DNA from: a virus
IMG/VR virus record: IMGVR_UViG_3300021364_000104
Location: 1 to 31,478 of that record
Length of the DNA: 31,478 nt
Direction: 5' to 3' (one strand)
Part shown: piece by piece, positions 3,438-31,076 of the stretch
How positions within the stretch are numbered: position 1 is the stretch's first letter
How the letters are laid out: every line of letters starts with the position of its first letter
Position numbers and translations under genes: made by a program
Notes under the pieces: model-generated
What the model saw: only the letters and a program-made list of their open reading frames with translations
What the model was told of the DNA's origin: nothing
Databases searched by the model: none

Positions 3438-3457
3438 AAAACAACAAAAATTAAAAA

Positions 3458-5293
3458 ATGGCTAACTCAATTACATTAAGTGCGGATATAATCAATGCTT
3501 TATCCGCTAAAATAACGGCAGGTACAGCGACTGCGGAAGAAATCGTTCTCTATACCACAGGATTGCAAAGACTGCAGGAAGGAAATGATTTTGAAGCTAC
3601 AGTTATTGGTTTGTCTCAAAGCGCAGTTGATGCTATTGATGCGGCTAATAGTCAATTTGTAGCTGATGCTGCAACAGCGGTATCAAATTTCAGTACTTCT
3701 ACTGGAACAGCGGTAACAGATTTTACAACAGCTTCTAATACCGCTATAACTGATATTAATACAGCAAGAACTAATTTAGAAACAGCGGCTACTGATTTAG
3801 CGAATGTTGTTTCAGGATTACCAACAACACAAGCTATTGAAGACGCAATTGATACAGGATTAAATTATGTACCGCCAAACCAAAGAATAGCGTTCTGGTT
3901 TGCACGTGGTGAAGCTGGAAACTACGCGATGTTTACCGCGTTCGATCATAACTTAGTTATGCAAGATGAAGCGCAGTATACAAACAAATGGTGGGGTAGT
4001 GGTTCTAATTACGCTGCAGGTAACGGTTATGGAGCTAGTAGCTCTCTTGTTGGAAGCGCTTATTCAAATACTGATGCGGGAACAAATAATTATTTTAATT
4101 TAAGAATGTCAAACACTGTTGATGCCTTAGGGGGACCTAATTTTGGTTTTTATGATCAATATAATGGTTATGGAAAAACAGGAATTAGATTTAATGACGG
4201 TGGAACCGCGAATCAAAAGTCGGAATTATGTCCAATTGTAAGCACATACGAGCAAGACGTTTTTCTATTTAGAGATGGCGACCAGTTTAAATTAACTACA
4301 GGTTACAATCCAGGAAAAGCATCCAACCATGACAGACACAGATTTAATCAAAACCCTTTATTGCAAATTGATGACGAACCACAAAGCATTCATGTTGGAT
4401 ACACAGGATTTTTATGGCCAAGTACTGGTACGACAGGAAAAGGGTTAGCTTGTTATAATGCTACAACTAATAAATTAGTTGCATTTGATGTTTCTACAAC
4501 TCAAAATGATGCATTCCCTATAGTAGCTTCATTTGCTGGCACTAAAACACCAAGAAGATTAGCTTGGGGATTAGAGTCTTCAGGATACAAAGAAGATTAT
4601 GATGCTACTGCAGATTTAACAGGTATGATTATTGGTACAAATGGAGTTGCTAATAAACCAGCTAGTACAGGTACTGAAGCAAATTATAGAGGAAAACCAG
4701 TATTATGTGATAATGATAATATTGTATTAGTTCAAGCAATTCATAATGGACCATTATATTTACAAAGATGGGTTCCTAATGGAACGAATGACAACTGGCT
4801 ACAGGATTTTGATACTACTATAACTAGAAATGGTACTGTTTATAGTGCTGACAATACTGAAAACTCAAGTATTAGATTTGTAACAACTGTTGATGGAAGA
4901 TATGTAATAATATTTACGCACTACTATTACTATGGAGGTGGTATGTGTGGATATATGGTTAGAGTATCAGACGGTAAAATATTAAAATTTACAGCTGGAA
5001 CTAATCAGTACCAACAATTTATTGCGCCTTTCCACAAAAATAAAATATTCTTTTACGGTAGAAACTTTAATAGCAATAGAAACTACTTCCCAATGGATTT
5101 AGATTACATTTTTAGTTTAAATGCAGACGGAAGCGATATTTCAGCTTTATTTACCAATCAAGATCAAGACCCACAAACCTCAGCGTATTTAGGTCAAAGT
5201 AATGCCCTGGGTCATTCATTATACGGGAGTACTTCAGGTGCAGTTGTAGTAACGCATAAAATCAATCCATTAGAATTACAAAATTTAGTATAA
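3458..5293 (+). CDS. Tail fibre / receptor-binding protein with coiled-coil stalk
   Basis: A 611-residue protein. Residues about 1-135 are Ala/Thr/Asp-rich and helical, with a regular series of TAV.DF.TAS.TA.TDI-type steps that looks like a trimeric coiled-coil stalk. After a short linker (YVPPNQRIAFWF), the rest is Gly-, Asn-, Tyr- and Trp-rich and apparently all-beta, with several blade-like stretches that could be a propeller or beta-sandwich head. No enzyme motif was recognised. The leader upstream (3438-3457) is almost pure A. The stop is one base before the next ATG. The stalk-plus-head design and its place between other fibre genes suggest a receptor-binding protein; this is inference. 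Confidence 0.6.
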   Translation: MANSITLSADIINALSAKITAGTATAEEIVLYTTGLQRLQEGNDFEATVIGLSQSAVDAIDAANSQFVADAATAVSNFSTSTGTAVTDFTTASNTAITDINTARTNLETAATDLANVVSGLPTTQAIEDAIDTGLNYVPPNQRIAFWFARGEAGNYAMFTAFDHNLVMQDEAQYTNKWWGSGSNYAAGNGYGASSSLVGSAYSNTDAGTNNYFNLRMSNTVDALGGPNFGFYDQYNGYGKTGIRFNDGGTANQKSELCPIVSTYEQDVFLFRDGDQFKLTTGYNPGKASNHDRHRFNQNPLLQIDDEPQSIHVGYTGFLWPSTGTTGKGLACYNATTNKLVAFDVSTTQNDAFPIVASFAGTKTPRRLAWGLESSGYKEDYDATADLTGMIIGTNGVANKPASTGTEANYRGKPVLCDNDNIVLVQAIHNGPLYLQRWVPNGTNDNWLQDFDTTITRNGTVYSADNTENSSIRFVTTVDGRYVIIFTHYYYYGGGMCGYMVRVSDGKILKFTAGTNQYQQFIAPFHKNKIFFYGRNFNSNRNYFPMDLDYIFSLNADGSDISALFTNQDQDPQTSAYLGQSNALGHSLYGSTSGAVVVTHKINPLELQNLV

Positions 5294-5294
5294 C

Positions 5295-5699
5295 ATGAAA
5301 GTAGTAAAAGTAAATGGTACAATAATTACCGAAATTCATACATCAAGAAAAAAGAAAGATATTAAAATAATTTCTAAAGGCATAGAAGTTGATAGCGACT
5401 TTAAAGGCAAGGTGGGAATGTTTTATGATATAGACACTAAGGAATTAAGAAAAGCCACAATACAAGATAAAATGTCATCAGGTTTTTGCAAAGAAAACAT
5501 TAGTAAAGGTGAATTAATATCTAAATTGACAGCTGATGAACTTACTGGTATTTTAACTAAAAAAGCATCAGATGTTGAAACTGAGGTTTATTGGTTACAA
5601 GGTGATACCGCTAATTTAGACCCAATGTTTCTAATAAAAAAGGAGCTTTTAACAGAAGAAAGATTAGAGGAGATATTAACAATTATAGATATAGATTAA
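5295..5699 (+). CDS. Unknown small protein between two fibre genes
   Basis: A 134-residue, charged, mixed alpha/beta protein that I do not recognise. It begins with a beta-rich basic half (MKVVKVNGTIITEI...KKKDIKIISKG) and ends with an acidic helix (ELLTEERLEEILTIID). It has no membrane segment or signal peptide. It sits tightly between two large adhesin genes (1 base upstream, 4 downstream). Small genes in that position often encode fibre-assembly chaperones or short linker proteins, but there is no sequence motif here to support either role. Confidence 0.55.
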   Translation: MKVVKVNGTIITEIHTSRKKKDIKIISKGIEVDSDFKGKVGMFYDIDTKELRKATIQDKMSSGFCKENISKGELISKLTADELTGILTKKASDVETEVYWLQGDTANLDPMFLIKKELLTEERLEEILTIIDID

Positions 5700-5703
5700 T
5701 ATA

Positions 5704-7674
5704 ATGCAATTATCAGATAAAGCAACTAAAGTATACGAAGAATATTTTAGTTCCGATATTGGTAGTTTGGAGTTTGAATATAAAATGCAAACTTCTGATT
5801 ATAGTATTGGTTTCCAAGAATTAATAACTTATCCCAGCGTATTAGCTGAAATAAAGGCTTATGGTAGATACTCTGAATTAATAGGTACTTCTGGAACAGC
5901 TTATAATCTAATAACAGCATATGAAACCAGCGAGGATAATAAAAATGTGGAGCTTGCAGCTTATAATGCTATGTTTTCACATACTTCGCAAGATCAGTTT
6001 AATTCTTTTTATAATACAACCGCAGGAGCTTTGGGATTTGGGCTTTGTATAGACAACCCAAATACAGTTTATGATTTAGCAGGAAATGATACAGTAGTAA
6101 CACATATTATAAATAATAGCGGGTCATTAGAAGCTTTACTAAATTCTACAGAAGCTATTAAAGCTTTTTCTGAAACTTCTTCTTCAGCCGCATTAATATT
6201 TGCAAATGTTGAAGCTAATAAAAAGTTTAAAGATAATATAATATTTACAACTAAATCTAATTTACCTGTAAATGCGGACGCAGCATCTTATGGCAAAATA
6301 TATTATTTAAATAATAAATATATATTTTTTCAAAATAATATAATTTATTTCAGTGATGACGCAATAACTTGGTCAAACGCTACCATAAATTTAGAGCCAC
6401 AAGATGATGATACTACAATATATTTTGATTATGATGCAACAACTGCATTATATGTCATGGCTATTGCGGCATCAGGTGATTATATATATAAAAGCACGGA
6501 TTTAATAACTTGGGATCAAGTATTAATACCGCAAACCGGTACACCTGATGGTTTATGTTCATTTAATGACCAAATATATTTATCAATCGGGGGATATATA
6601 TATAGAACAACTTCAGGAGGTGCAACTTGGTTTCAAGTTAGGTTTGGTTCAGGTGTAACATATAAATTGCAAAAATTTAAAGATAAACTTGTTACGTATT
6701 CTTCCGCTAATGCTTTAGATTTCGTAGACACTAATAATGCGTTTAATCTTTATCTGTCAAATGTTATCGCGGAAACTATAGATTATATATCAACATCGCC
6801 TGATTATATGTTTTTTGTAACAAAGGATACTGTTACAAATGCGCCAAATGTAAATAATTATATATATACATTAAACGGGTTAGATGCTGAGTCTATTGTT
6901 ACTAAATATGAATTTGGGCTAGCTTCAGAAGATTATAATATTAAAAAGATATTATATGCAAATGGAATATATATAGCGCAAACTACAGATGGTTATATAG
7001 TTGGTACTGATGGTGTGAACTGGAGTATTAAAAGAAGAGACGAATCTTATATTTTAAACATATCAGCTATAAGTAATAAAGGTATTTTTGGATTTGTTAC
7101 AGATACTAAATTTATAGCGTCAAATTATGATATACAGGTTGAAGGAACGGGTGTAACCACCACTACTACGACAACAATTCCGTCGGAGCCTAATCAATCA
7201 TTAAGTGAATGTTTAGATGTATTATCGGAAGCAAGCATAGTTAACGATGGCGGCAATAAATTGCTATTAAACGCGCATTACGGCTATATTGCTAATAAAG
7301 AATATTTAGTAAATAATAAAAGCTATATTTTATTAAATGTGCCGCAAACAGAGCCTATAGCGGTATTAAACAAAAATATAGCTACAAAAGTGAAATATTT
7401 TGGCGATCCTACAAAAAGGTTTGCTAAAACAATTACCGGAACAGTAGCTGACGGAAGTTATTTCTTTTACTATGGCAATGTAAGAATAGTAATTGAAAAT
7501 AATACAGTAAATGATAATTTTGGTAATGCAACAATATGGGGTTATAATACTGGCAATATAGGCGCTAATAATTTATTAACTTACCATGTAGCCGGAGAGT
7601 ATGACACATCCGGTGATTCAGATACAGTAACAGTGGACAACACTGATATATTAATAAACACAGAAACTTGTTAA
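5704..7674 (+). CDS. Beta-propeller adhesin with Asp-box repeats and poly-Thr hinge
   Basis: A 656-residue protein with three parts. Residues about 1-190 are mostly helical. Residues about 195-475 contain four Asp-box (BNR)-like motifs: SDDAITW at 217-223, STDLITW at 264-270, TSGGATW at 303-309 and TDGVNW at 435-440. These are typical turns of sialidase-type beta-propellers. A run of seven Thr (485-491) then IPSEP forms a hinge to a C-terminal domain of about 160 residues. Asp boxes mark the fold, not activity; I did not find the arginine triad or other catalytic set needed for a sialidase, so a binding role is more likely than hydrolysis. It lies within the fibre cluster, one base before the next gene. 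Confidence 0.65.
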   Translation: MQLSDKATKVYEEYFSSDIGSLEFEYKMQTSDYSIGFQELITYPSVLAEIKAYGRYSELIGTSGTAYNLITAYETSEDNKNVELAAYNAMFSHTSQDQFNSFYNTTAGALGFGLCIDNPNTVYDLAGNDTVVTHIINNSGSLEALLNSTEAIKAFSETSSSAALIFANVEANKKFKDNIIFTTKSNLPVNADAASYGKIYYLNNKYIFFQNNIIYFSDDAITWSNATINLEPQDDDTTIYFDYDATTALYVMAIAASGDYIYKSTDLITWDQVLIPQTGTPDGLCSFNDQIYLSIGGYIYRTTSGGATWFQVRFGSGVTYKLQKFKDKLVTYSSANALDFVDTNNAFNLYLSNVIAETIDYISTSPDYMFFVTKDTVTNAPNVNNYIYTLNGLDAESIVTKYEFGLASEDYNIKKILYANGIYIAQTTDGYIVGTDGVNWSIKRRDESYILNISAISNKGIFGFVTDTKFIASNYDIQVEGTGVTTTTTTTIPSEPNQSLSECLDVLSEASIVNDGGNKLLLNAHYGYIANKEYLVNNKSYILLNVPQTEPIAVLNKNIATKVKYFGDPTKRFAKTITGTVADGSYFFYYGNVRIVIENNTVNDNFGNATIWGYNTGNIGANNLLTYHVAGEYDTSGDSDTVTVDNTDILINTETC

Positions 7675-7675
7675 A

Positions 7676-8650
7676 ATGGCACAACAAACTATAAATGTTG
7701 GAGTTAATCCAAACGATGGAGGCGGGGATACTTTAAGAGCAGCAATGCAAAAAGTTAACGCTAACTTCACAGAAACATACGGGAACGATTTCATTAATTC
7801 AGCTCAAATAGTAGAGAATGCAATTAATGAAAGAGAACTTAATATCGGTGCAGGAACATCAGGACAATCGTTAGCATCTGATGGAGCAGGAGGTTTTTAC
7901 TGGGGTAATGTTATCACAGGTGACGTTCCTGTCGGAGTCTTACAAACAAGACTTGGCGAAATAGGTGCTACTACAATTGGTGTTGATGCTGCTGCTGATA
8001 TAACTTTTAACGGGCAGATAACTGCTACAGGACAAAATGAAATTACATTTACTCACGCAACATTTGCGGGATTACCCGCAGCAGCGAGCAACGAGGGGCT
8101 AATTGCTTACGCGCAAGATACCGGTAAATTTTATTGGTCAGACGGTACCCAATGGGTAGCTGCGTTTGCATTAGCTTCAGACGTTAGAGATAATATAGAA
8201 TATATAGGTTATGATACATCTGATTTTATTAGATTTGTTAATAACACAAAAATGGACTTCTACGTTAATAACGTATACAGAATGCGTTTAGATGATGGAT
8301 TGGATTTAGATGGGGATATAAACGCAACAGGTGATGTTATAGCGTATTCTACAGTAACACTTTCGGATATAAATTTAAAGAAAGATGTTGAGACAATAAA
8401 AAATCCAATTGATAAAATAAATAAAATCAACGGTGTTACATATAAATGGAAGGATAGCGATAAAGAAGCGGCTGGTCTTATAGCCCAAGAAGTACAATCA
8501 ATCTTACCACAATCAGTTATAAAAAGAACTGATTTTCATGGAGAAGAACAGCTTGCTTTAGACTACAACGCTGTAGTAGGGCTACTTGTAGAAGCTGTTA
8601 AAGATTTAGATAGTAGGTTAAAAAATTGTAATTGTAATTGTAAAAAATAA
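7676..8650 (+). CDS. Tail fibre with C-terminal S74 intramolecular chaperone domain
   Basis: A 324-residue protein. The N-terminal INVG.NPNDGGGDTLRAA and NANFTETY segments are common at the start of phage fibre proteins. The middle is a short beta-rich shaft. From about residue 229 it has a peptidase S74 / endosialidase-type intramolecular chaperone: LSDINLKKDV (S230, D231, K235), then ITYKWK-like and AGLIAQEVQSILP motifs, and a final helical bundle with LDYNAVVGLLVEAVKDL. In this family the domain trimerises the fibre and then cuts itself off just before the conserved Ser, using a Ser-Lys arrangement. That predicts a mature fibre of about 229 residues and a released C-terminal part of about 95. 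The last residues are the odd NCNCNCKK, which could crosslink chains. Confidence 0.85.
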   Translation: MAQQTINVGVNPNDGGGDTLRAAMQKVNANFTETYGNDFINSAQIVENAINERELNIGAGTSGQSLASDGAGGFYWGNVITGDVPVGVLQTRLGEIGATTIGVDAAADITFNGQITATGQNEITFTHATFAGLPAAASNEGLIAYAQDTGKFYWSDGTQWVAAFALASDVRDNIEYIGYDTSDFIRFVNNTKMDFYVNNVYRMRLDDGLDLDGDINATGDVIAYSTVTLSDINLKKDVETIKNPIDKINKINGVTYKWKDSDKEAAGLIAQEVQSILPQSVIKRTDFHGEEQLALDYNAVVGLLVEAVKDLDSRLKNCNCNCKK

Positions 8651-8656
8651 TAAATT

Positions 8657-9136
8657 ATGGCATTAATTGGAGATTATACTAAATATTGGCTTGAAGATGA
8701 TCAACAAGAAGTTAGGGAGGTTGTAGTTACATATCCATCTATTTTACCTGAACAGCATCCTAATTATGATAAAAGAGGGGTTACAGAAACTATAATAGAA
8801 CCTGTTACTGTGGAAAAAAGTCAAACCTGGGAAAATGTTTATATAGTTATAAGAACATACGCAATAGAAAAAGAAGAAATTCCGCATTTTGAAGAAGTTA
8901 GTATGGAAACACCCGACGATCCTGTTACGCCTATAGGATTAGAAAAAGGATGGAAAATGAGTTTAAGATATGCTGTTTATGCTAATAAAGAAGACAAACT
9001 TATGTCTCCTGAGAATTACATATTACAAGATTACGCTTATATTGATTTGCCTCCTATGAATGAAAGTATTTTTAAACTAGGTTATTCAAGCCTTAAGCAG
9101 CAGAGAGGATTTGAACAAACACAACACGACGAATAA
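8657..9136 (+). CDS. Unknown 159-residue protein in fibre cluster
   Basis: I do not recognise this protein. It is acidic and Tyr-, Pro- and Glu-rich, with alternating beta-type stretches (EVREVVVTYPSILP, TWENVYIVIRTYAI, GWKMSLRYAVYANKE) and no membrane segment, signal peptide or enzyme motif. Its leader and first codons (ATAAATTATGGCATTA) are the same as those of the next gene. The adjacent genes are fibre proteins and the spacing is six and three bases, so it is most likely a small virion or fibre accessory protein. Confidence 0.55.
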   Translation: MALIGDYTKYWLEDDQQEVREVVVTYPSILPEQHPNYDKRGVTETIIEPVTVEKSQTWENVYIVIRTYAIEKEEIPHFEEVSMETPDDPVTPIGLEKGWKMSLRYAVYANKEDKLMSPENYILQDYAYIDLPPMNESIFKLGYSSLKQQRGFEQTQHDE

Positions 9137-9139
9137 ATT

Positions 9140-10165
9140 ATGGCATTACAGACATCAGGACCAATCGCTTTATATGTGGATATAAGAGCAGAAGAAATTG
9201 TAAAAACACCTAGTTTACCCGCAGATGACCTCGGACTTAGAGAAGTTTCAGCGGCCGCTGGTTTTACTGAACCGGATTTGATGTCAGAATTTTACGGATA
9301 TTCTTCTGTAACACCTATTGTGTGGACCGCAGCCCCAGTAGAGATCGGTAAAAATGATGTTAGTATTAATATAAGACAAAATGCTAACACATATAATACA
9401 GGAAATGGTACTATAACCTCTAAGGGTTTTTATTATGGAACAAGTACTAATATAAATAGTGCAACTAAAATACAAGTTAACACATCAAACAATACAGCTG
9501 AATTTACAAGAAATTTTACAGGGCTAAGCGGTGGTACTACTTATAGATTTTGGGCTTATGCTGTTAATGATGCTGGAGAAACAGTGAGTCCTAGAAGAGA
9601 TATAACAACGCTACCTTCAGTGAGTTTAACCGTAACAAATAGTGTTAGTACTCAGTTTTATATTGATGGTTATACAGCTTCTGCTATTCATAACTGGACT
9701 TGGGGGGATCTTAGTGGGCGCCATCAATACCAGCACCCTTATTACGGGATGACAACTACTGGAAGTAGAGGGTATAATGCTTATACAATTGCTGCAAATG
9801 GTTGGTTAAACTGGTATTTTACTTCATCTATAACAAAAGCAAATAATGCCACTACAAGGCAAGAGTTCCATAACGGTGCGTATATAGCTCTATCAGGAGA
9901 ATTTTATGTAAATAGTTCTGAAACCAACGCTAGCTGGTTTTCTGGCCAGTCCGGCTCTTTTACGGATAACAGTAACAAAACCTTTTCAGTGAACACGTAT
10001 ACTCCATGGGGTGGACCTTTTACAGGAACAGTAACTGGAAACTCAGGAAGTGCTAATTCAGGTAACTATTACGGCTCCCATTGGAGTAATGCTCCTACAA
10101 ACGGTAACCCTAAAATAGAAAGTTATACTTATTTTACAAGAGTAGGTGGGACCAATGTGGTCTAA
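9140..10165 (+). CDS. Virion protein with TSGPI...FYG N-terminus and FN3-like domain
   Basis: A 341-residue protein. The N-terminal ~55 residues (ALQTSGPIAL...ending in LMSEFYG) match a short module seen at the start of many phage surface proteins, which I take to be an attachment element. Residues about 58-158 look like a fibronectin type III fold, with the usual final strand pattern (LSGGTTYRFWAYAVND.GET). The C-terminal ~180 residues are rich in Gly, Ser, Asn, Thr, Tyr and Trp and predicted beta. This suggests a carbohydrate- or surface-binding tip, although I see no named lectin motif. FN3 domains on phage particles are known to aid adhesion. It is the last gene of the fibre block; a 26-base A/T-rich gap follows. 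Confidence 0.6.
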   Translation: MALQTSGPIALYVDIRAEEIVKTPSLPADDLGLREVSAAAGFTEPDLMSEFYGYSSVTPIVWTAAPVEIGKNDVSINIRQNANTYNTGNGTITSKGFYYGTSTNINSATKIQVNTSNNTAEFTRNFTGLSGGTTYRFWAYAVNDAGETVSPRRDITTLPSVSLTVTNSVSTQFYIDGYTASAIHNWTWGDLSGRHQYQHPYYGMTTTGSRGYNAYTIAANGWLNWYFTSSITKANNATTRQEFHNGAYIALSGEFYVNSSETNASWFSGQSGSFTDNSNKTFSVNTYTPWGGPFTGTVTGNSGSANSGNYYGSHWSNAPTNGNPKIESYTYFTRVGGTNVV

Positions 10166-20860: not shown

Positions 20861-21754
20861 ATGGCATTGCTAACTGAAACTAATCAACAATATTACGAAG
20901 GTTCAAATTTAGGTAGTTATCAATTTATAACGTTAACAAATGTTATAAATAATTTTATGCTATCTTATACCGGCCCAGATAAAATAGTTGGTGATACAAA
21001 AAGAACAGAAGTGTTATTTCATGCTCAAAGAGCTTTGCAAGAATTAAGTTATGATACTTTAAAATCTGTAAAAACACAAGAAATAGAAGTTAGCCCCTCG
21101 TTATCTGTTCCTCTACCGCATGACTACGTAAATTATGTAAAGATTTCATGGGTAGACGAGAATGGTGTGGAACATAGAGTAATGCCTACAAGACAAACTA
21201 GCACGCCTACGGCTTTATTACAAGATAGTGATTTTAACTATATATTTGACAACAACGGTAACCTTGTATTAGCGGCGGCTTCTGAAACAGAACAAAAATA
21301 TCAAGCGGCTACAAGCGGGCAAGCGGTAACAACAGCTGATTTAACAGATATATTAGCTAAATCAGAAGATGAGTATAAAATACATTATGGAACGAGGTAT
21401 GGATTAAATCCTGAAACAACAAACAGAAATGGTTCATTTGTTATAAATGATAATAATGGCACAATTTCTTTTTCAGGTGATTTTAATGGTAGATTAATAA
21501 TTATAAAATATATTTCTGACGGATTGGCTACTGAAGCAGAAATGAAAGTGCATAAATTTGCGGAAGATGCTATTTATAAATTTATAGCACATTCAATAAT
21601 TTCTACAAAAAATAATATACCTGAATACCAAGTTAGAAGATACCAAAAAGATAAATCTGCAGCAATTAGAAAAGCAAAATTAAGATTAAGCAATTTAAAA
21701 ATAGAAGAACTTAATCAAATAATGAAAGGTAAGTCTAAGCAAATTAAACATTAA
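20861..21754 (+). CDS. Head-tail connector / tail ring protein candidate 2
   Basis: A 297-residue protein with a helical N-terminus (VLFHAQRALQELSYDTLKS), then SPSLSVPLPHDYVNYVKIS. The phrase 'VPLPHDYVNYVKIS' is typical of gp11/gp4-type connector proteins of short-tailed phages. A beta middle (NGSFVINDNNGTISFSGDF, RLIIIKYISDGL) follows, and a basic helical C-terminus (KDKSAAIRKAKLRLSNLKI). It is predicted to stack beneath the portal. It is three bases after the previous gene and four bases before the giant nozzle gene, consistent with one assembly unit. Confidence 0.65.
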   Translation: MALLTETNQQYYEGSNLGSYQFITLTNVINNFMLSYTGPDKIVGDTKRTEVLFHAQRALQELSYDTLKSVKTQEIEVSPSLSVPLPHDYVNYVKISWVDENGVEHRVMPTRQTSTPTALLQDSDFNYIFDNNGNLVLAAASETEQKYQAATSGQAVTTADLTDILAKSEDEYKIHYGTRYGLNPETTNRNGSFVINDNNGTISFSGDFNGRLIIIKYISDGLATEAEMKVHKFAEDAIYKFIAHSIISTKNNIPEYQVRRYQKDKSAAIRKAKLRLSNLKIEELNQIMKGKSKQIKH

Positions 21755-21758
21755 TTAA

Positions 21759-24700
21759 ATGCCAGAAATTAAAAAGACTTTCCTTCGTGGAAGAATGAAT
21801 AAAGACCTTGATGAAAGGTTAATTCCAGAGGGAGAATATACAGATGCTCAAAATATTCAAGTTTCATCTACAGATGAATCAGAAGCTGGTACAGTGCAAA
21901 ATATTAAAGGTACAACTAAAATATTTGACACAATAGCACAATTTAGCCTAGAATTAGGAGATTTTAATTGTGTAGGGGCTATACAAGACGATGAGCACGA
22001 TAAACTATACTGGTTTATAAAAGGAACTGGCACTAATACAAAACAAGCTATTATAGAATATGATTTAGCAAATAACATAGCTAAACCAATATTAATAGAT
22101 AATGCGGGAACTATTTTAGAATTTTTAGGCGATTCTAATGAAAAATATATACCTGGTATTAAAATATTAGATCAAATGATTATTTGGACAGATAATAATA
22201 CTGAGCCAAAAATTGTAGACTTACAAATATTTTATAATAAAACTACTTATACTCAGCCTGATTGGAGTACAACTACATCTACAACAAAAGAAGATATTTT
22301 AATTATTAAAAAGAAACCATCTTCAGCTCCAACTGTAAAAATAACTTCATATACGTCAGATACATCAAATTCAATATTTGAAGAAAAATTTATTAGATTT
22401 GCATATAGATGGAAATTTAGTAATGGGCAATATTCTGCATATTCTCCATTTACAGAAACTGTGTTTGACCCAACTATAGATCCCGTATTAAATCAAATAC
22501 CTTATAACAAAGACGAAGGGTATAATGAAAGACAGAAAAATAATATTGAAAAAATAAAATTAGAAGGTTTTGAAGTGCCTAATAATGTTGAGCAGATTGA
22601 AGTATTATATAAAGAGTCAAATAATACAAATGTTTATTTATATAAAACAATTAAAAATCCAACTCAATCAGAAGTTGTAACTATTGAGAATAAAGAAGAA
22701 AGTGTATTTTCCGTATTACCTGAAAATCAATTACTTAGACAATATGATAATGTTCCTGTAAAAGCTAAGGCTGTTGAAATAGTAGCAAATAGATTAATGT
22801 TTGGTAATTATGTTGAAGGTATTGATATAAACGATTATACACCAAATTTAACAATAACTACTGTTAATAGAGCTAAATTACCTGATTTTGACAACGGAAC
22901 CGTAAATAATACAGATTTAAGAACCATAAAATCTGGTAGAAAATATCAATTTGGGGTTGTATTTGAAGATGAATATGGTAGACAAACACCTGTTATAACA
23001 AATGAAACAGCTGTAAAAAATATTAATTACGGAGAAAATACATTGCCACAAGCTTTTGAAATAACATTAAATAATGCGCCGGCAGCTGAGAGAATAAAAA
23101 AATATAAATACTTTATTAAAGAATCTTCGGATCAATATTATAATTTTATTATTGAGCATGTATATGATGATAACGATAATACAGAGCATGCGTGGTTATT
23201 GGTTCCAAGTTATGAAATAAATAAAGTTAATGAAGAAGATACAATAGTATTAAAAAAGGCTGCAAATGGAGGTGCTATTGCGGCACCAACAAAATACAAG
23301 GTATTAGATATATCAGACTCTACCCCAAATGGGATTACCTCATCAGCTTCCCATGCTGGTAAGTTTTTTATAAAAATTAAAAAAGATTCCAATATAACAT
23401 CAGAATTATTATCACAAGGCGGTATTACCAATAGCGCTTTAATAGCTGAAAATTCATCTAATTGGGAAGGCCCTATATATACAGTTCCAAGTAACGCGTT
23501 ATTTTTAGGGCAATATTCAGTACAAGACGGAAACCAAACTTATGAAAGAACTAGATTTTATTATAAAGATGGTAAAATATATGAGGTTGTTGATATAATA
23601 GGGTATCCCGTTGATAATGATTTTCAATCAGGAGTTTTTGCAACTTACAATACAAATCCAACATGTAGCAGTCTAACAGATGGTAATTGGGCTGATTTAA
23701 GTATAACAGGAACTGGTGACCCGTCGGGTGATGTAGATGCTGTTTTTGTACAAGCAATTTCTGGAAATCCTGATTATCCAGGAGCTTTTTATATTTGTTT
23801 ATCAAATACTCCGACAACAAGTGGTACAGGATTTGGCCCCGCTGTATTTGAAGTTGAACCAAATGATGGTATATTAGATATATATTACGAAACTGAAGAC
23901 GCATATAATATAACAGATTTAACCGCAAAAACATTAAGATGGTATAATGCGTATCAATTTACAGATGGTGTTGAATCAGATAGAATAAAAGATGATTTTA
24001 ATGAAGTAACATTAGGTAAAGGGGTGAGAGTATCTACGCAAACAGATGCTAAATTCAAAGAATATACACGAGAAAATGGTATTATATCTTCAGATATTTA
24101 TAATAGCAAAAACAGTGTAAATAATTTAAACCAGTTTAATACTGGTCTACCTATTACAAAAGATATTAGCCCTGAATATGGTGGAATACAAAGATTACAT
24201 ATAAGGTCGTTGCAAGGAAGTGATTTAATAGTGTTCGCTGAAAATAGAGTATTAAGATTACCTGCTAATAAAGATTTATTATATAATGCTGATGGCACAA
24301 CAAATTTAATATCTACAAATCAAATATTAGGAACAGCGTTTCCTTATGCGGGAGATTTTGGTATCTCCGATGACCCTATGTCTTTTGCTGAAAACGGTAG
24401 TAGAATATATTTTGTTGATAGAGCAAAAAATGCTATTTTAAGATTAAGCCCAGACGGTTTAACTGTCATATCAAGTAAAGGTATGAAAACCTTTTTTAGA
24501 GACAAGTTAAACAATCAAGATTTACCAATAGTTGGTGTTTTTGATGAATATTCAGACCAATATATACTTTCATTTGATAATTCAGATCCAACAATTGCTG
24601 AAAGTGTTACATTTAAAGAAAACGTAGATGGGTGGGTTTCAAGATTAACTTATGTTGTAAAACCAGCAGTATCAATAAATGGCAAATTATATAGTTTTAA

Positions 24701-27700
24701 TTACGGAAATTTATATGAGCATTATCATCCATCAAGTACAAGAAATGTATTTCATGAAAAACTTTTTACTAATTCAGGTGTGCAATTAGTATTTAACCAA
24801 ACGCCTTCTGCTATTAAAAATTTTAAAACTATATCTTATGAAGGCAGCCAAGCTAAAAACAGTAATAAAAAAGGGTGGAGTGTTGGCTCAATAATAACAG
24901 ACCAGCAACAAGGTAAAATAGTAGAATTTAAAGAAAAAGAAGGTAAGTGGTTTGCAAATATTTCTGGTGTAACAAAAGATGTTGGAATAGAAGGCACCCC
25001 TGATATAGATGTTCAGGAATTTGCAATTCAAGGTATTGGAAACTTAGATAATTTAGGTGAGGTTCCAACAGAATTTGAGTGTAGCACAGCTGTGTATAGC
25101 ATGACAACCGGTAATGTGGGTGACCCCTCAATATCTGTAGCCACTGTTTCTTTAGGTGTAATTAAAAGTATTACTCCTGCAACACTTCAAGAAGGAGAGC
25201 AAGAATATACAGCTACTATAACAGCACCTAGCACTGGGTATACAAATTCAGGTGATGATATTACTTGTAAATTTACTTTAACCCTTGCTCCTCAAGAAAA
25301 TTTAACTTGTACAACTAATGGTTTTGTATTAAACATTGATGATGGATTAGAAGGTGACGCTGTAACTGGCTCAGCCTCTATAAACGGAGCGGCTTTAACT
25401 ATACAAGCTATAAATCCTGGAGTATATCAACCGGGCAGTGGATTAACTTATACAGCTACAATATTAGTTCCAGCAGGATACGCAAATCAAGGCGCAACAA
25501 TAGATTGTGATGATACCGCTACTGCCGCAACAGGTGCGTATGATTGCAACACTTTCTCGGATTGGGTAACAGCTAGTTATGATGTGTCTACTGGTAATAT
25601 AACTGTATTGCCAAAAAGACCATCTACGACTGTGCATAGTTACACACCAACAGGCTCAGCACCTAATCAAGGAAATGTCCCCATAACATACACGTTTAGT
25701 GACAGCGGAGTAGCTTGGTCAAATTCAGGGACCCAAATACAATGTATAGACGGTATAACAGTGGATACAACTGTAACATATTCTGCAACTATATCGGGTC
25801 CTAGTACATTCCAAGTAAATAGCGACACTTCTTTAAGCGTAATAGTAGAAGGAGACGGCGTTTATAATCAAAATATAGATGTTACATCACAATTAAATGA
25901 CCCTGTTGATTTTGTATGGTCAGGCCCAGCTAGTATGTCTGGAATAACAGGTACTTCAACAGGTTTATTTACAGAACTTGCAGCAGGTGAAGTTTATACA
26001 TATTATGTAACTATTGACACAACAAGCTTAACAGGATCTTCCAGTTCTATTGTAGCTTCAAAAAATATAGAATGGGTTGATGGTCCAACCGTGCAACTAT
26101 CAGCTAGTACTAGCATCGCTTTTACAGGAGATAATGTTGAATTAACTGCTAATGGGCAAAATATATCAAACGCTTCATTTGAATTTTCAGAAAGTTATAA
26201 TGATGGTGCTACTTGGTCGGTTGTTCAAGCATTTAGCTCAGATAATACTTTTACAGCAACAAAGGCTTGTGGAACAAATCCAGGTGTTGTTAGATACAAA
26301 GTAAGAATGGACGGTACTAATTCTATAACAAATACTCCGCTAGCTAGCCCTGTAGAAAGCGATCAAACAAATAATAAAATTAATGTAGTTTGGAATGATG
26401 CACCGGAATGGAATTTATATTTTGAAAGTTCTCAAGCTATATTACATTCTATTTGTGATACTGATATAAATACATTGCAGCAAGTTGCATTATTTGGTAA
26501 TACATTAACAGGAGCACCAAATGACCCCTCATTTACTACTAAATTATACCAAAATTGTGAAAGAACAATTGATGCAGGAAGCGGTGGAACATATTTACAC
26601 ATAGCTCCAAATGGGACTAAAAGATATGCTTATTTTAATGGTGCTAATATTTCGGCGCAACCAAATAGCGCTACTGGGTGGTTATCATGTAGTAATATGT
26701 ATTTAACAATTATAGATGGCGCACAAACTATTGATATAACTAATCAAACTATAGAAAAATGTGCTAATATAGATTTAGTGCAAATTACGGCTAATATTGA
26801 AGGATTTGAGTATGATGAAATTTTATGGTCACCTACTGGAAGTACTTCTTTATCAACTACAGCATCATCAGAAACTGTACAATCAATAACTTATATATGT
26901 ACTGCAACAAATAACACCACTAATCAAACTTTAACAGCAAGTGCAACTATTGATTTTGTAAATTGTAGCACATTGGTAGCGGCAAGAAAATGTGCGAGTA
27001 CAACGCAGCCATTAAGATATTTACGAGTAGATGGTATAGCTAGCATGGCAAATGCAGGCGATGTTGTAGAATTTACAGCTATAAATAATAGTACTTTACC
27101 TGAAGGTGATGGCTGTTATGAACTTGTGCAAAAAACAGGAGTTACAGAATCAGATAATATAACAGTTTCTGTAACCGATGTAGTAGGATTTTCGGATTGT
27201 GATTCGTGTAATTGTGACCCTACGGGGACTTCAGAATTTACTAATATATCTTTTTCAGATGCTATAAAATATATTTATGCAGACGGAGGAGGCTATAATA
27301 CAATAACATTAAGCGCGAGTGTAACAAATGCAATTTGTCTTTCAACCGCTAGTTACCAATGGTATGCAGGGTTGTCTACAGATAAAACAAGCCATATATC
27401 AATAAAAACAACTAGTTCTAATTCAACTACAGTAACATATCAAGAATTAACAAGCGCGGGATTATCAATAACACCAGGTTCAACACTAGTGCATTATCAT
27501 TGTAAATTAAGTTACACAATAGGAAACGGTAGTTCTCAATCTGCTGAATCAGATAGTACACAAGGTATGTCGTGGATAAACTTACCTGAATTTACGTTGT
27601 CGTATTTAAATTCAGGAACAGCTAGTAATCCTGATGACTCTATATGTTCCAGTACTAGTGGCTCAACTTTATATCCTGTTTTTGGAAATGAAGGACAAGA

Positions 27701-29819
27701 TCCAGGCCAAGATAATCTTTTACTTGCTACTAAATTTTATTCTAATGCTGAAAGAACACAAACGCCAGCAAATGGAACATGGAAATCTAACTATGGCGGG
27801 AATGCTACAAATATTTATACATACTTATTAAATGGTGTGCCCCAAACCCCCACGAATGCGGTACAAGGTACTAATTGGAGGGCTTGTGCGGCTAATTTTA
27901 GTTTAACATCAAATAGAGGAGATAGCGGCTATACGCTATGTAATAATTTAACAGCTAATTTATTTGCTAATTATGATCCTAATGTATTAACATTGAATAC
28001 ATCTACATATGAGTGGAGAGTTAATAATGTAGTGCAGACAAGCTCTAATGGTCAAGCTAATTTCACAGCATCAAACCCAGGCGGTGCAGGGCTTGTTATA
28101 TATGGTGTGTCAGTGCAAGATACAAATGGAATCCCATATGAAGACCAATTTCAAATACAATGGCAAGACTGTAGTGTTAAGGTAAGGGTAAGAAAATGTG
28201 GTAATTCAACCGGTTATGCTGTTGCTACAGTTTTAGGAACCTCAACAATTGCAAATGGAGTTTTTGAACTAACTGCTGAGCCAAATCAACAATTACCAGA
28301 GGGCAATGGTTGTTATACAATATTACAAACAACGACTGAATCGTCTAATGCAGAAGTTACGGCTATAGGGCCAAATGGAGATTCAGGCCAACCTTATGCA
28401 AGTTGTAGCGTTTCCGCGTGTAATCCTGTAGATGAATTTTATTTATTATCAAGATGTCTTGATGGAGCACAATACAGAACGTCACAAACTATAGAAAACC
28501 TTAGTTATTATGTAAATCAAATTTTAGAATATAATACTCAATCATATACGGTAATAGGTACAACTACTAATACAGGTATAACATCAATTTCAAGTTTTAC
28601 AACTACCAGCTATACTAGTTGTCCAGCATATTATGGATTACAAAAATGTTCTGACCAATCTACTAATCATAGATCAGGTGTAGATGTAGAGCAATTTACA
28701 TTAAATGTAGGGGATAGAGTAAGCGATATACTTACTGGGGAATTTTATGTTGTTCAAAATAACACAGCAACATCAGGTAATTTAGCTACTGTGGTTAGCA
28801 CAGGTTTAACTGGATGTCCAGAACCTACACAAAATTATTATCAAATTAGAGAATGTTCTACAGGTACAGATTATAGAACGCAAAGAACAACAGACGCTGT
28901 AGTTCTTTATGTTGGAAATATAGTATATAATCAAACAGGTGATGTATTTTTTACAGTTATATCAAATACAGCGCAGGTTGGTGATTTTCCAGAGTACTCA
29001 ACACAAGTTTACCAGTCTCCTTACAGTAGTTGCCCGCTGGGTAGTTATAATTGTAATACTTATAATGATTGGGTAACAGCATCGTATAATTCTAGTACAG
29101 GCAATATAACACTTACGCCAGTTAGAAATACAACAACTGTTACAACTTATTCTCCAACAAATACCGCTTCAGGACAAGGAGTAATAACTGTGACTTATAG
29201 TTTTCAAGATTCAGATGTTAACTGGAGTAATACAGATGAAATTATTTCAGGTTGTACAATAACTGTTGATACAGGTACAGCTACTGTATATAGAGCTACA
29301 TTTACAGATTGTGATGGACTTGGTTCAACTATAAATGTTACTAGTAGCCAACAAATAGATACAGACCAAGTTCTTTCAGATGGAGTTACTTGTTATCAAT
29401 TTGCAAATAATAATGGTGGTAGTCCAGAACAAGATATAACAACATATACTTCTTACAACGAACCTGATTTAGATTCTACAGGAAATTGTGGAGTTTGTGA
29501 CGCTGTAGTAAATCCAACTACAACTACAACTACGACTACTACTCTAGCTCCTTGTATAGCGGTTGATGTATATAAAACAAGATTCAATCCAGCTACAAAC
29601 CCAGATGCAATGAGTATTTTATGTGGTAATGGATTTGCAACAACACAATATTTTAACGCAAGCTCAGTAGGTGCTGCAACTATATATTATTCAGATTTTA
29701 CCTGTACTACATATAAGAGCACAGCTGAATACATTTCTGACGCTAATAATACATCACAATATTATTATTGGAATGGTAATTCATTAACATTAATTGGGAA
29801 TACTGGGCCGTGTCAATAA
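21759..29819 (+). CDS. Giant tail nozzle (muzzle/stabilization) protein fused to repeat-rich adhesin
   Basis: A 2686-residue protein. Residues 1 to about 1080 look like the nozzle/'stabilization' protein of crAss-like podoviruses: FLRGRMNKDLDERLIPEGEY at 7-26 and the propeller-like stretch IYFVDRAKNAILRLSPDGL in about 875-900. The usual protein of this kind is, to my memory, much shorter. From about 1108 it becomes a Cys-bearing beta repeat protein. A tandem pair of ~76-residue domains (1108-1254) is followed by module X (1261-1346), Ig-like domains (to about 1445), two ~398-residue units (about 1445-1825 and 1840-2220), three ~66-residue Cys-bounded repeats (2228-2427), a second module X (2430-2515), a Thr9 hinge (2587-2595) and a 91-residue tip. 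Role inferred: DNA exit nozzle carrying a host-binding extension. Confidence 0.75.
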   Translation: MPEIKKTFLRGRMNKDLDERLIPEGEYTDAQNIQVSSTDESEAGTVQNIKGTTKIFDTIAQFSLELGDFNCVGAIQDDEHDKLYWFIKGTGTNTKQAIIEYDLANNIAKPILIDNAGTILEFLGDSNEKYIPGIKILDQMIIWTDNNTEPKIVDLQIFYNKTTYTQPDWSTTTSTTKEDILIIKKKPSSAPTVKITSYTSDTSNSIFEEKFIRFAYRWKFSNGQYSAYSPFTETVFDPTIDPVLNQIPYNKDEGYNERQKNNIEKIKLEGFEVPNNVEQIEVLYKESNNTNVYLYKTIKNPTQSEVVTIENKEESVFSVLPENQLLRQYDNVPVKAKAVEIVANRLMFGNYVEGIDINDYTPNLTITTVNRAKLPDFDNGTVNNTDLRTIKSGRKYQFGVVFEDEYGRQTPVITNETAVKNINYGENTLPQAFEITLNNAPAAERIKKYKYFIKESSDQYYNFIIEHVYDDNDNTEHAWLLVPSYEINKVNEEDTIVLKKAANGGAIAAPTKYKVLDISDSTPNGITSSASHAGKFFIKIKKDSNITSELLSQGGITNSALIAENSSNWEGPIYTVPSNALFLGQYSVQDGNQTYERTRFYYKDGKIYEVVDIIGYPVDNDFQSGVFATYNTNPTCSSLTDGNWADLSITGTGDPSGDVDAVFVQAISGNPDYPGAFYICLSNTPTTSGTGFGPAVFEVEPNDGILDIYYETEDAYNITDLTAKTLRWYNAYQFTDGVESDRIKDDFNEVTLGKGVRVSTQTDAKFKEYTRENGIISSDIYNSKNSVNNLNQFNTGLPITKDISPEYGGIQRLHIRSLQGSDLIVFAENRVLRLPANKDLLYNADGTTNLISTNQILGTAFPYAGDFGISDDPMSFAENGSRIYFVDRAKNAILRLSPDGLTVISSKGMKTFFRDKLNNQDLPIVGVFDEYSDQYILSFDNSDPTIAESVTFKENVDGWVSRLTYVVKPAVSINGKLYSFNYGNLYEHYHPSSTRNVFHEKLFTNSGVQLVFNQTPSAIKNFKTISYEGSQAKNSNKKGWSVGSIITDQQQGKIVEFKEKEGKWFANISGVTKDVGIEGTPDIDVQEFAIQGIGNLDNLGEVPTEFECSTAVYSMTTGNVGDPSISVATVSLGVIKSITPATLQEGEQEYTATITAPSTGYTNSGDDITCKFTLTLAPQENLTCTTNGFVLNIDDGLEGDAVTGSASINGAALTIQAINPGVYQPGSGLTYTATILVPAGYANQGATIDCDDTATAATGAYDCNTFSDWVTASYDVSTGNITVLPKRPSTTVHSYTPTGSAPNQGNVPITYTFSDSGVAWSNSGTQIQCIDGITVDTTVTYSATISGPSTFQVNSDTSLSVIVEGDGVYNQNIDVTSQLNDPVDFVWSGPASMSGITGTSTGLFTELAAGEVYTYYVTIDTTSLTGSSSSIVASKNIEWVDGPTVQLSASTSIAFTGDNVELTANGQNISNASFEFSESYNDGATWSVVQAFSSDNTFTATKACGTNPGVVRYKVRMDGTNSITNTPLASPVESDQTNNKINVVWNDAPEWNLYFESSQAILHSICDTDINTLQQVALFGNTLTGAPNDPSFTTKLYQNCERTIDAGSGGTYLHIAPNGTKRYAYFNGANISAQPNSATGWLSCSNMYLTIIDGAQTIDITNQTIEKCANIDLVQITANIEGFEYDEILWSPTGSTSLSTTASSETVQSITYICTATNNTTNQTLTASATIDFVNCSTLVAARKCASTTQPLRYLRVDGIASMANAGDVVEFTAINNSTLPEGDGCYELVQKTGVTESDNITVSVTDVVGFSDCDSCNCDPTGTSEFTNISFSDAIKYIYADGGGYNTITLSASVTNAICLSTASYQWYAGLSTDKTSHISIKTTSSNSTTVTYQELTSAGLSITPGSTLVHYHCKLSYTIGNGSSQSAESDSTQGMSWINLPEFTLSYLNSGTASNPDDSICSSTSGSTLYPVFGNEGQDPGQDNLLLATKFYSNAERTQTPANGTWKSNYGGNATNIYTYLLNGVPQTPTNAVQGTNWRACAANFSLTSNRGDSGYTLCNNLTANLFANYDPNVLTLNTSTYEWRVNNVVQTSSNGQANFTASNPGGAGLVIYGVSVQDTNGIPYEDQFQIQWQDCSVKVRVRKCGNSTGYAVATVLGTSTIANGVFELTAEPNQQLPEGNGCYTILQTTTESSNAEVTAIGPNGDSGQPYASCSVSACNPVDEFYLLSRCLDGAQYRTSQTIENLSYYVNQILEYNTQSYTVIGTTTNTGITSISSFTTTSYTSCPAYYGLQKCSDQSTNHRSGVDVEQFTLNVGDRVSDILTGEFYVVQNNTATSGNLATVVSTGLTGCPEPTQNYYQIRECSTGTDYRTQRTTDAVVLYVGNIVYNQTGDVFFTVISNTAQVGDFPEYSTQVYQSPYSSCPLGSYNCNTYNDWVTASYNSSTGNITLTPVRNTTTVTTYSPTNTASGQGVITVTYSFQDSDVNWSNTDEIISGCTITVDTGTATVYRATFTDCDGLGSTINVTSSQQIDTDQVLSDGVTCYQFANNNGGSPEQDITTYTSYNEPDLDSTGNCGVCDAVVNPTTTTTTTTTLAPCIAVDVYKTRFNPATNPDAMSILCGNGFATTQYFNASSVGAATIYYSDFTCTTYKSTAEYISDANNTSQYYYWNGNSLTLIGNTGPCQ
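25080..25508 (+). repeat. Tandem ~76-residue beta domains in giant protein
   Basis: Two similar domains lie at about residues 1108-1174 and 1184-1254. Each has a Cys near the start (C1108, C1184), a YTATI strand in the second half, a Gly-Tyr-x-Asn-x-Gly turn and a Cys in an IxC motif near the end (C1170, C1250). The paired Cys may form a disulfide. Confidence 0.65.
25539..25797 (+). repeat. Module X, first copy
   Basis: Residues 1261-1346 (YDCNTFSDWVTASY, then STGNITVLPKR ... ITYTFSDSGVAWSN) closely match residues 2430-2515 later in the protein. Shared features are the CNT..DWVTASY..STGNIT opening, the VAWSN/VNWSN strand and the ITVDT ending. Confidence 0.75.
26085..28420 (+). repeat. Tandem duplication of ~398-residue unit in giant protein
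   Basis: Two large units of similar design follow one another. The boundaries are approximate. Matching landmarks are SICDTD (C1566) with SICSST (C1963), TKLYQNCERT with TKFYSNAERT, and LPEGDGCYELVQ (C1786) with LPEGNGCYTILQ (C2185). Landmark spacing is 397 and 399 residues. Sequences have diverged considerably, so the duplication is old or under diversifying pressure. Confidence 0.7.
28440..29039 (+). repeat. Three tandem ~66-residue Cys-bounded repeats
   Basis: Copies begin at residues 2228 (YLLSRCLDGAQYRT), 2291 (YYGLQKCSDQSTNHRS) and 2360 (YYQIRECSTGTDYRTQ). Each has an early Cys, a central hydrophobic strand with Asn/Gly turn (YVNQIL, NVGDRV, YVGNIV) and ends in a Cys-Pro pair. The regular Cys pair per repeat suggests a disulfide-stapled beta domain. 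Confidence 0.75.
29046..29303 (+). repeat. Module X, second copy
   Basis: Residues 2430-2515 (YNCNTYNDWVTASY, then SSTGNITLTPVR ... VTYSFQDSDVNWSN) repeat the module at 1261-1346. The two copies bracket the large internal duplications, which implies dispersed rather than tandem copying of this module. Confidence 0.75.
29517..29543 (+). repeat. ACN triplet run encoding Thr9 hinge
   Basis: Nine Thr codons in a row (residues 2587-2595, mixed ACT/ACA/ACG) separate the C-terminal 91-residue domain from the rest of the giant protein. A similar run of seven Thr codons at 7156-7176 lies in the propeller adhesin. Confidence 0.9.
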
Positions 29820-29833
29820 TTAAATAAAATTTT

Positions 29834-30739
29834 ATGATATATATATGCGCTCAGCCAGCTATATTATATTATGCTTGGCAGATAGATACAATGCTTTATA
29901 ATTTTAAAGATACTGGGATAGACTTAAATAATGTACATATTGTTTGTTCATTTAAAGCTCCTATTGATCCATATTTTAGAAAATTAGAAAAAAAATATTC
30001 AGCTAAATTTTTTTATTATCAAGATACAAGGTTTGAACCTGATTATATATCTAGTATACGACCACATATATTGGCTAAACATTTTGAAAGTAATAAATAT
30101 TTAGAAACCACTCCTATATTTTATCATGACTGTGATATTGTTTTAGCTAGGCCGTTAGAATTAAAAAATTATATAAGCAATAATATAAATTATTTATCTG
30201 ATACAATTTCATATATAGGGCATGATTATATAAAAAGCAAAGGGGAAGAAGTATTAAATTTAATGTGTAAAGTAATGAATATATGCTCTTGCAAAGTTAG
30301 AGCTAATCAACACAATTCAGGTGGAGCACAGTATTTATTAAAAAACATACCAGCTGATTTTTGGAAAGCGGTAGAAGATGATAGTGAAAACTTATTTTAT
30401 GCTTTAACAGAATATAATAAAGTTAAAAAGCAACAAGACCCAGAATACCACGAATTACAAATATGGTGCGCTGATATGTGGGCTTTATTATGGAATTTAT
30501 GGAAAATAAATAGGCCTACAGCAATAATACCAGAAATGGATTTTGTATGGCCAGTTGAAAAACGGGATTCAATACAAGGTAAATCAATAATTCATAATGC
30601 TGGAGTTTTAAATAATAAAAATAGATTATTTTATAAATCTGACTATAGATCTAAACTTCCAGATTTAAATTTAGATATTGATGAAACAAAGGTGTCTTCG
30701 TTCTATTATAGCTTTGTAAAAAAAGCATTATTAACGTAA
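29834..30739 (+). CDS. Glycosyltransferase-like protein (GT-A fold, GT8-like)
   Basis: A 301-residue soluble protein. YHDCDIVLARPL carries a DxD motif (D99-C100-D101), the metal- and sugar-nucleotide-binding motif of GT-A transferases. NSGGAQYLL (161-169) sits where many GT-A enzymes bind the acceptor or donor. HNAG (254-257) resembles the HxxG metal-binding motif of family 8. The N-terminus (IYICAQPAILYYAWQIDTML) could be the first Rossmann-like strand and helix. There is no signal peptide or membrane segment. It lies 14 bases after the giant adhesin gene and before virion genes, so it may glycosylate a virion protein or a host surface sugar. Substrate and acceptor cannot be told from sequence. 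Confidence 0.65.
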   Translation: MIYICAQPAILYYAWQIDTMLYNFKDTGIDLNNVHIVCSFKAPIDPYFRKLEKKYSAKFFYYQDTRFEPDYISSIRPHILAKHFESNKYLETTPIFYHDCDIVLARPLELKNYISNNINYLSDTISYIGHDYIKSKGEEVLNLMCKVMNICSCKVRANQHNSGGAQYLLKNIPADFWKAVEDDSENLFYALTEYNKVKKQQDPEYHELQIWCADMWALLWNLWKINRPTAIIPEMDFVWPVEKRDSIQGKSIIHNAGVLNNKNRLFYKSDYRSKLPDLNLDIDETKVSSFYYSFVKKALLT

Positions 30740-30749
30740 TAATAACAAT

Positions 30750-31076
30750 ATGAGTCAAATAACACTTAATATAACAGCACATAATAATACGTCTTTACAG
30801 ATAGGTGATACATTGTATTATTTGGGTACAGATAGTAATAAAAAAAGAATTGGCCCGTTGTTATCAAAAACAACATCTACAATAACATGTGATACCGATG
30901 CTAATAGTGATTTAACACAATTAAGTGCATCAAGCTATTTATTTTTTGGCAAAGATCATGTTATCAATACTTCCGGTATAATTGGATATTACGCTGAAGT
31001 TAATTTTTCAAACAATTCTGAACAAGAGGCTGAGTTATTTGCAGTAAATTCAGAAATATTTATAAGTAGTAATTAA
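30750..31076 (+). CDS. Small beta-rich protein of unknown function
   Basis: A 108-residue protein rich in Thr, Ser and Asn with predicted beta strands (ITLNITAHNN, SLQIGDTLYYLG, TITCDTDAN, GYYAEVNFSN). The 'LQxGDTLYY' turn occurs in small structural proteins of marine phages, in my memory. It has no membrane or signal segment. It is 10 bases after the transferase gene and one base before the next ATG, so it is most likely a minor virion protein. It could also be the acceptor of the transferase, but nothing directly shows that. Confidence 0.5.
   Translation: MSQITLNITAHNNTSLQIGDTLYYLGTDSNKKRIGPLLSKTTSTITCDTDANSDLTQLSASSYLFFGKDHVINTSGIIGYYAEVNFSNNSEQEAELFAVNSEIFISSN

Follow-up and report, generated by a model that had tools for sequence, protein, structure and literature searches.

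We describe a known muzzle protein that carries an undescribed, exchangeable module at its C-terminus. It is encoded in the window, a stretch of viral DNA of 31,478 bases, by a gene in which a muzzle core is continued by a long Thr/Ser- and Cys-rich arm (Table 1). The explanation that we consider best, with somewhat better than even confidence, is a muzzle arm that contacts the host, can be interchanged and is probably glycosylated; the adhesion and the glycosylation are what we infer. Read at the level of sequence, the analysis yields a fusion, a slot filled with differing material, repeated switching between fused and split states, one exchange, a predicted enzyme fold and a linkage of that enzyme to Thr/Ser-rich tail proteins. 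These observations suggest that, in this aquatic group related to crAssphage, the part of the tail in contact with the host is swapped and perhaps coated with sugars.

Table 1. Features of the muzzle-arm locus in the window
Feature	Position	Strand	Evidence
Virion structural gene immediately before the muzzle gene, at the position of the ring/tail tubular protein	20861..21754	+	phrog_13977
Muzzle-arm gene	21759..29819	+	single ORF, ATG to TAA, 2686 codons
Muzzle core (aa 1-1096)	21759..25046	+	phrog_14478; hhalign 99.5% to Crassvirales muzzles
crAss_MUZ_C domain (PF25729; aa 995-1069)	24741..24965	+	Pfam, above cut-off
Left exchange breakpoint, at conserved EFKEKEGKW motif	24930..24960	.	nucleotide identity rises from ~0.7 to >0.9; dS falls
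Arm (aa 1097-2686), T/S- and Cys-rich	25047..29816	+	composition and repeats
Repeat A, copy 1 (aa 1259-1346)	25533..25796	+	49% identical to aa 2428-2516
Repeat B, copy 1 (aa 1533-1900)	26355..27458	+	self-comparison, ~33% to copy 2
Repeat B, copy 2 (aa 1930-2294)	27546..28640	+	self-comparison
Three C repeats, ~70 aa each (aa 2217-2427)	28407..29039	+	HMM
Repeat A, copy 2 (aa 2428-2516)	29040..29306	+	self-comparison
Arm C-terminal domain (aa 2575-2686), preceded by a Thr-tract linker	29481..29816	+	HMM
Right exchange breakpoint, at start of next gene	29830..29860	.	identity falls from >0.9 to ~0.8
Predicted GT-A glycosyltransferase (phrog_4417)	29834..30739	+	AF2 model and Foldseek
C-tail protein gene	30750..31076	+	phrog_18548 split over two genes; HMM

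A single gene joins a muzzle to a long arm

A sequence-only reading of the window had proposed one uninterrupted gene of 2,686 codons at 21,759-29,819, and this proved correct. Among 200 shuffles of the same bases the longest open run was 144 codons, and the muzzle gene of the nearest relative, contig L002, also encodes 2,686 residues, with a core that is 58% identical to that of the window; the gene is therefore both real and conserved. The window and most of its relatives are metagenomic fragments, which might raise the suspicion that the fusion arose in assembly, but the probability of such an artefact is close to nil. The same length and architecture in L002, whose core has diverged so far, effectively refute it; in addition, G+C by codon position looks coding along the entire length of the gene, and many relatives are fused likewise. 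The muzzle-arm gene is one genuine open reading frame, and the fusion is confirmed.

The same reading had held that the gene begins as a crAss-like muzzle. Phrog_14478 matches residues 4-363 (E = 4e-124), its match and that of phrog_18548 together fall within the first 1,079 residues, and crAss_MUZ_C scores 28.5 bits against a Pfam cut-off of 27 and 36 bits in a genome search. Because a profile built from 13 cores matched nothing among PDB sequences, the muzzles of Crassvirales were compared directly. Against a profile of seven of them, the core profile aligned with 99.5% probability and an E-value of 1e-22 (hhalign), over window residues 799-1073 only, which pair with residues 1054-1333 of PhicrAss001 gp44; the crass fold and the IG1/IG2 region gave no sequence match in this profile comparison. 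The closest cultured relatives of the core, at 26-31% identity, are found in Flavobacterium elemoviruses, Cellulophaga phi40:1 and phi38:1, and Tenacibaculum Gundel, and the record of phi40:1 gp97 describes a structural protein detected by MS/MS. The order of a ring/tail tubular gene followed by the muzzle gene is the same in the window, phi40:1 and crAss001. By homology, residues 1-1073 are a crassvirus-type muzzle.

The muzzle is encoded in more than one piece in several of the collected loci. Two genes, split near core residues 357-388, encode it in L015, L018 and L019, and L075 likewise has a two-gene muzzle. MUZ_C lies on its own downstream gene in L093, L094 (Maribacter phage Panino) and L096 (Cellulophaga phi18:3), and the muzzle of L098 lies in two frames, probably through a frameshift.

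The arm is repetitive and rich in Thr, Ser and Cys

The core stops near residue 1096, at the end of a motif common to the relatives, which leaves an extension of about 1,590 residues. Past residue 1075-1097 or so, the composition is 14.8% Thr, 10.7% Ser, 2.7% Cys and 1.4% Lys, compared to 8.4% Thr, 0.3% Cys and 7% Lys in the core. Repeat A is about 88 residues long, with weaker copies at residues 1110-1250, and the unit of repeat B spans about 370-400 residues. The length, the internal repeats and the Cys content agree with the earlier description of a repeat-built, Cys-bearing extension of some 1,600 residues. We regard the arm as built of Cys-containing, Thr/Ser-rich domains that are probably beta-structured.

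An HMM of the C repeat recovered its three copies in the arm and further copies in other glycosyltransferase-linked proteins. In L122, L125, L126, L144, L148, L154 and L164, the gene immediately ahead of the same glycosyltransferase encodes a protein with this repeat, and the one in L122 starts as a major tail protein (phrog_1407, Phage_tail_2).

Searches of Pfam, PHROGs, NCBIfam, the PDB and annotated phages returned no match to the arm and no recognised receptor-binding or carbohydrate-binding domain in it, and the muzzle-arm protein had no match to the BACON domain. Matches of the arm to fluorescent proteins were insignificant and were discarded. When IMG/VR was scanned with the whole arm as query, the L002 contig was the only match. 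An AlphaFold2 model of residues 1925-2686, made from a 12-row alignment, had a mean pLDDT of 47.8, too low for interpretation, so that the absence of a PDB match to this model carries no information.

One slot separates the muzzle C-terminal domain from the C-tail

Positions 3-128 of phrog_18548 are matched by the window's muzzle and positions 152-237 by the gene at 30750-31076, whose product we call the C-tail. An HMM places the C-tail domain at the end of the muzzle protein itself in phi40:1, the elemoviruses and Gundel. By this homology, the C-tail (about 110 residues) is a domain that ends the muzzle itself in cultured relatives and has its own gene in the window. Since phrog_18548 spans both pieces and these are fused in the cultured relatives, a single slot is defined, with the muzzle C-terminal domain on one side and the C-tail domain on the other.

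With the muzzle core alone as query, 74 loci were collected, nearly all of which have a C-tail homologue, and the slot could be delimited in 65. It is filled in all 65, by 207-2078 residues of inserted protein, and empty in phi40:1, the elemoviruses and Gundel, where muzzle and C-tail form one protein with nothing between. Complete muzzles end either 42-103 or 170-1617 residues past the muzzle C-terminal domain. Across 57 lineages, the insert is fused to the muzzle in 21, a separate gene in 21, and a long tail together with a separate gene in 15; the window is counted in the last class because the glycosyltransferase gene sits in its slot. The muzzle tree requires at least 13 changes among these states, and homologous inserts can be fused in one member of a pair and encoded separately in the other (L066/L026, 40%; L030/L033, 34%; L036/L035, 48%). 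Stop-codon recoding as the cause of the "split" muzzles was ruled out, as every muzzle stop in the collected loci is TAA. The comparison of these sequences indicates that the slot is filled with differing material, fused or unfused, and that these states have switched repeatedly.

Whether all homologues were already known to carry such an extension has a divided answer. Many are indeed extended at the same place; however, their extensions differ in sequence, occur on uncultured contigs only and are described in none of the papers searched. A second kind of long arm, with 3.6-4.8% Cys and a sequence unrelated to that of the window, is present in L053, L059, L064 and L028. In L053 and L059 the gene after the Cys-rich arm has a bacterial Ig domain at its end.

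The insert has a gene of its own in half of the relatives, as would be natural if the arm were cut from the muzzle by proteolysis and acted as a protein of its own, like the unfused slot genes. Fused arms nevertheless recur in many lineages, and neither a protease site nor other evidence of a protease was found. We consider cleavage quite improbable.

Recent cassette exchange of the arm

Between the window and L002, dS is about 1 around the arm and about 0.1 within it. In detail, it is 0.45-1.65 in the upstream genes and 0.83-0.89 in two downstream genes, compared to about 0.02-0.2 over most of residues 1101-2686, where dN is low as well. The low divergence is confined to the arm and ends at a domain boundary on one side and at the gene end on the other, indicating the exchange of a cassette of about 4.9 kb that comprises the arm. 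From these divergences we conclude that the exchange between the two lineages was recent. Similarity kept merely by selection on the protein was ruled out as an explanation: conservation extends to synonymous sites and is absent from the flanks. Five other pairs had no comparable drop in divergence, and we thus report one exchange and no rate. Modular exchange between related phages served as a test of adhesin character, and such exchange is seen in the drop in dS limited to the arm; that the arm is an adhesin is plausible.

Two patches of the exchanged arm, at residues 2014-2090 and 2521-2560 (27800-28040 and 29250-29440), are more diverged, with 56-85% nucleotide identity, and are possibly hot spots of variation or traces of a nested exchange. 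Elsewhere, the gene at 20861-21754 and muzzle residues 1-900 (21759-24450) have 45-68% amino acid identity to L002, mostly 50-60%, whereas the genes around 20861-24450 have 78-91%.

A predicted glycosyltransferase adjoins the arm

The gene that follows the arm belongs to phrog_4417, which is annotated as having no known function and has at least 294 relatives in IMG/VR. An AlphaFold2 model of its product from 37 sequences reached a pLDDT of 94.6. The top PDB matches in Foldseek are GT-A enzymes, namely UGGT, blood-group transferases, Skp1 galactosyltransferase and glycogenin (probability 1.00, E = 5e-5 to 7e-4, TM ~0.5), and D99 and D101 of a DxD-like metal-binding motif are invariant in the 37 sequences. 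We predict from this model that the gene encodes a GT-A glycosyltransferase.

The enzyme's neighbors point to a possible substrate. In dereplicated loci that have the gene, 28 of 41 upstream neighbors contain 19% Thr+Ser or more, compared to 62 of 374 other ORFs (p = 1e-11), in tests that count related sequences and in loci gathered with the enzyme as query. The HMM of the arm's C-terminal domain detected 41 ORFs in 40 loci. In most of these loci the domain closes the protein whose gene immediately precedes the glycosyltransferase, with 0-22 bp between the two genes; most of the 40 have no detected muzzle. Independent support comes from L003, which was found through its muzzle and not through the enzyme, and which has a GlcNAc transferase (PF11397, 1.7e-76) and an HtrL_YibB protein between arm and C-tail. 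Between an arm or Thr/Ser-rich protein and the C-tail gene, L098 and L166 encode family 29 glycosyltransferases, L156 and L106 encode family 2 enzymes, and L100 encodes a putative mannosyltransferase and a radical SAM protein. Cys-poor fused arms such as those of L037 and L072 have no glycosyltransferase gene behind them. Based on genomic linkage, the window's enzyme probably glycosylates the arm.

Phage glycosyltransferases that act on host surface sugars or on DNA exist. The enzyme could be another of these and its position coincidental, as many fused arms lack an adjoining glycosyltransferase. We give this interpretation a real but minor chance, given the tight adjacency to Thr/Ser-rich tail proteins in unrelated phages (Lactococcus 1706 and Enterococcus phiFL1A among them) and the different glycosyltransferase families encoded at the same place.

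Two further observations concern these loci. Radical SAM/SPASM genes lie directly behind the glycosyltransferase in L099 (8906-9952) and L100 (8909-9958), which suggests further modification chemistry in the same cassettes. In L003 (13331-14719), a long Thr-Pro (TPTPTP) linker connects muzzle and arm, with two glycosyltransferase-like genes behind.

A proposed role for the arm

In gp44 the propeller is interrupted by an insertion, the IG2/crass region (residues 318-1021; PMC10172136). Window residues 799-1073 correspond to gp44 1054-1333, past that insertion, and the arm would therefore start at the propeller and ring-joining end. It thus probably leaves the muzzle near the barrel rather than at the distal tip, and the proposal in the sequence-only reading that the adhesin sits on the tail tip itself is probably wrong. 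The fibre array that it placed separately at 693-10165 is supported, with matches of 693-3437 and 7676-8650 to tail-fibre PHROGs.

A proximal exit point, a separate fibre array and an arm in which no binding domain is recognised would also suit a skirt that surrounds barrel and muzzle for structure or protection, rather than a device for host contact; its variation would then reflect weak constraint. We find a skirt unlikely. Whole-cassette exchange and differing inserts in one slot are usual for host-contact parts, and the low dN alongside low dS indicates that the arm is maintained.

For the host-contact arm that we favor, we propose the following model. The muzzle, as the nozzle at the tail end through which DNA exits, would have its C-terminus prolonged by an interchangeable arm of about 1,590 residues. 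Given hexamer geometry, a virion would have six arms, attached on the muzzle's barrel-proximal side and reaching down past the muzzle to contact the cell beside the fibres. They would be long enough both for this contact and for acting on the muzzle gate, which host binding by the arm could help to open. Across the group the slot is filled with different material, exchanged at least here by recombination, and in the window's lineage the slot enzyme would glycosylate Thr/Ser-rich stretches of the arm. We speculate, more tentatively, that the arm is a mucin-like, Cys-rich glycoprotein made by the phage, the sugars of which shield it or act as bait for glycan-binding uptake proteins of Bacteroidota hosts that would then capture the phage.

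Contact with the host is likely to map to the defined, exchangeable slot in the muzzle operon of crAss-related phages, and host range would thereby become testable in a largely uncultured group. Phrog_4417 gains a candidate function as a predicted GT-A glycosyltransferase, probably acting on tail proteins, and through this predicted enzyme phage-encoded protein glycosylation is linked to the tail end.

Comparison with known systems

No C-terminal muzzle arm, slot or linked glycosyltransferase was described in the literature searched, which left out most subscription papers. Among characterized counterparts, PhicrAss001 gp44 (PMC10172136) resembles the window's muzzle in its homologous C-terminal third (99.5%), its crAss_MUZ_C domain and its place after the ring/tail tubular gene. 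In contrast to the window's protein, which continues, the muzzles of crAss001, cr126, DAC15, phi14:2, cr1, cr118 and cr108 end directly after the C-terminal domain. The insertions reported for muzzles lie within the crass and IG2 domains rather than C-terminally (PMC10172136). The muzzles of phi40:1/phi38:1, the elemoviruses and Gundel are the closest cultured relatives of the core (26-31%) and share its upstream gene order, but their C-tail is fused directly to the muzzle, with no arm or glycosyltransferase between.

The BACON-repeat tail proteins of p-crAssphage change rapidly and are thought to bind the host surface (PMC10136315). Like the window's arm, they are repeat-built and fast-changing; unlike it, they are separate proteins of the tail-spike region, not fused to a muzzle, and the muzzle-arm protein has no BACON match. 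For the enzyme, the parallels are Lactococcus 1706 and Enterococcus phiFL1A. Although its partner there is a major structural or tail protein rather than a muzzle arm, and the homologue is annotated as unknown or hypothetical, both phages, like the window, encode a phrog_4417 homologue directly downstream of a tail or structural gene.
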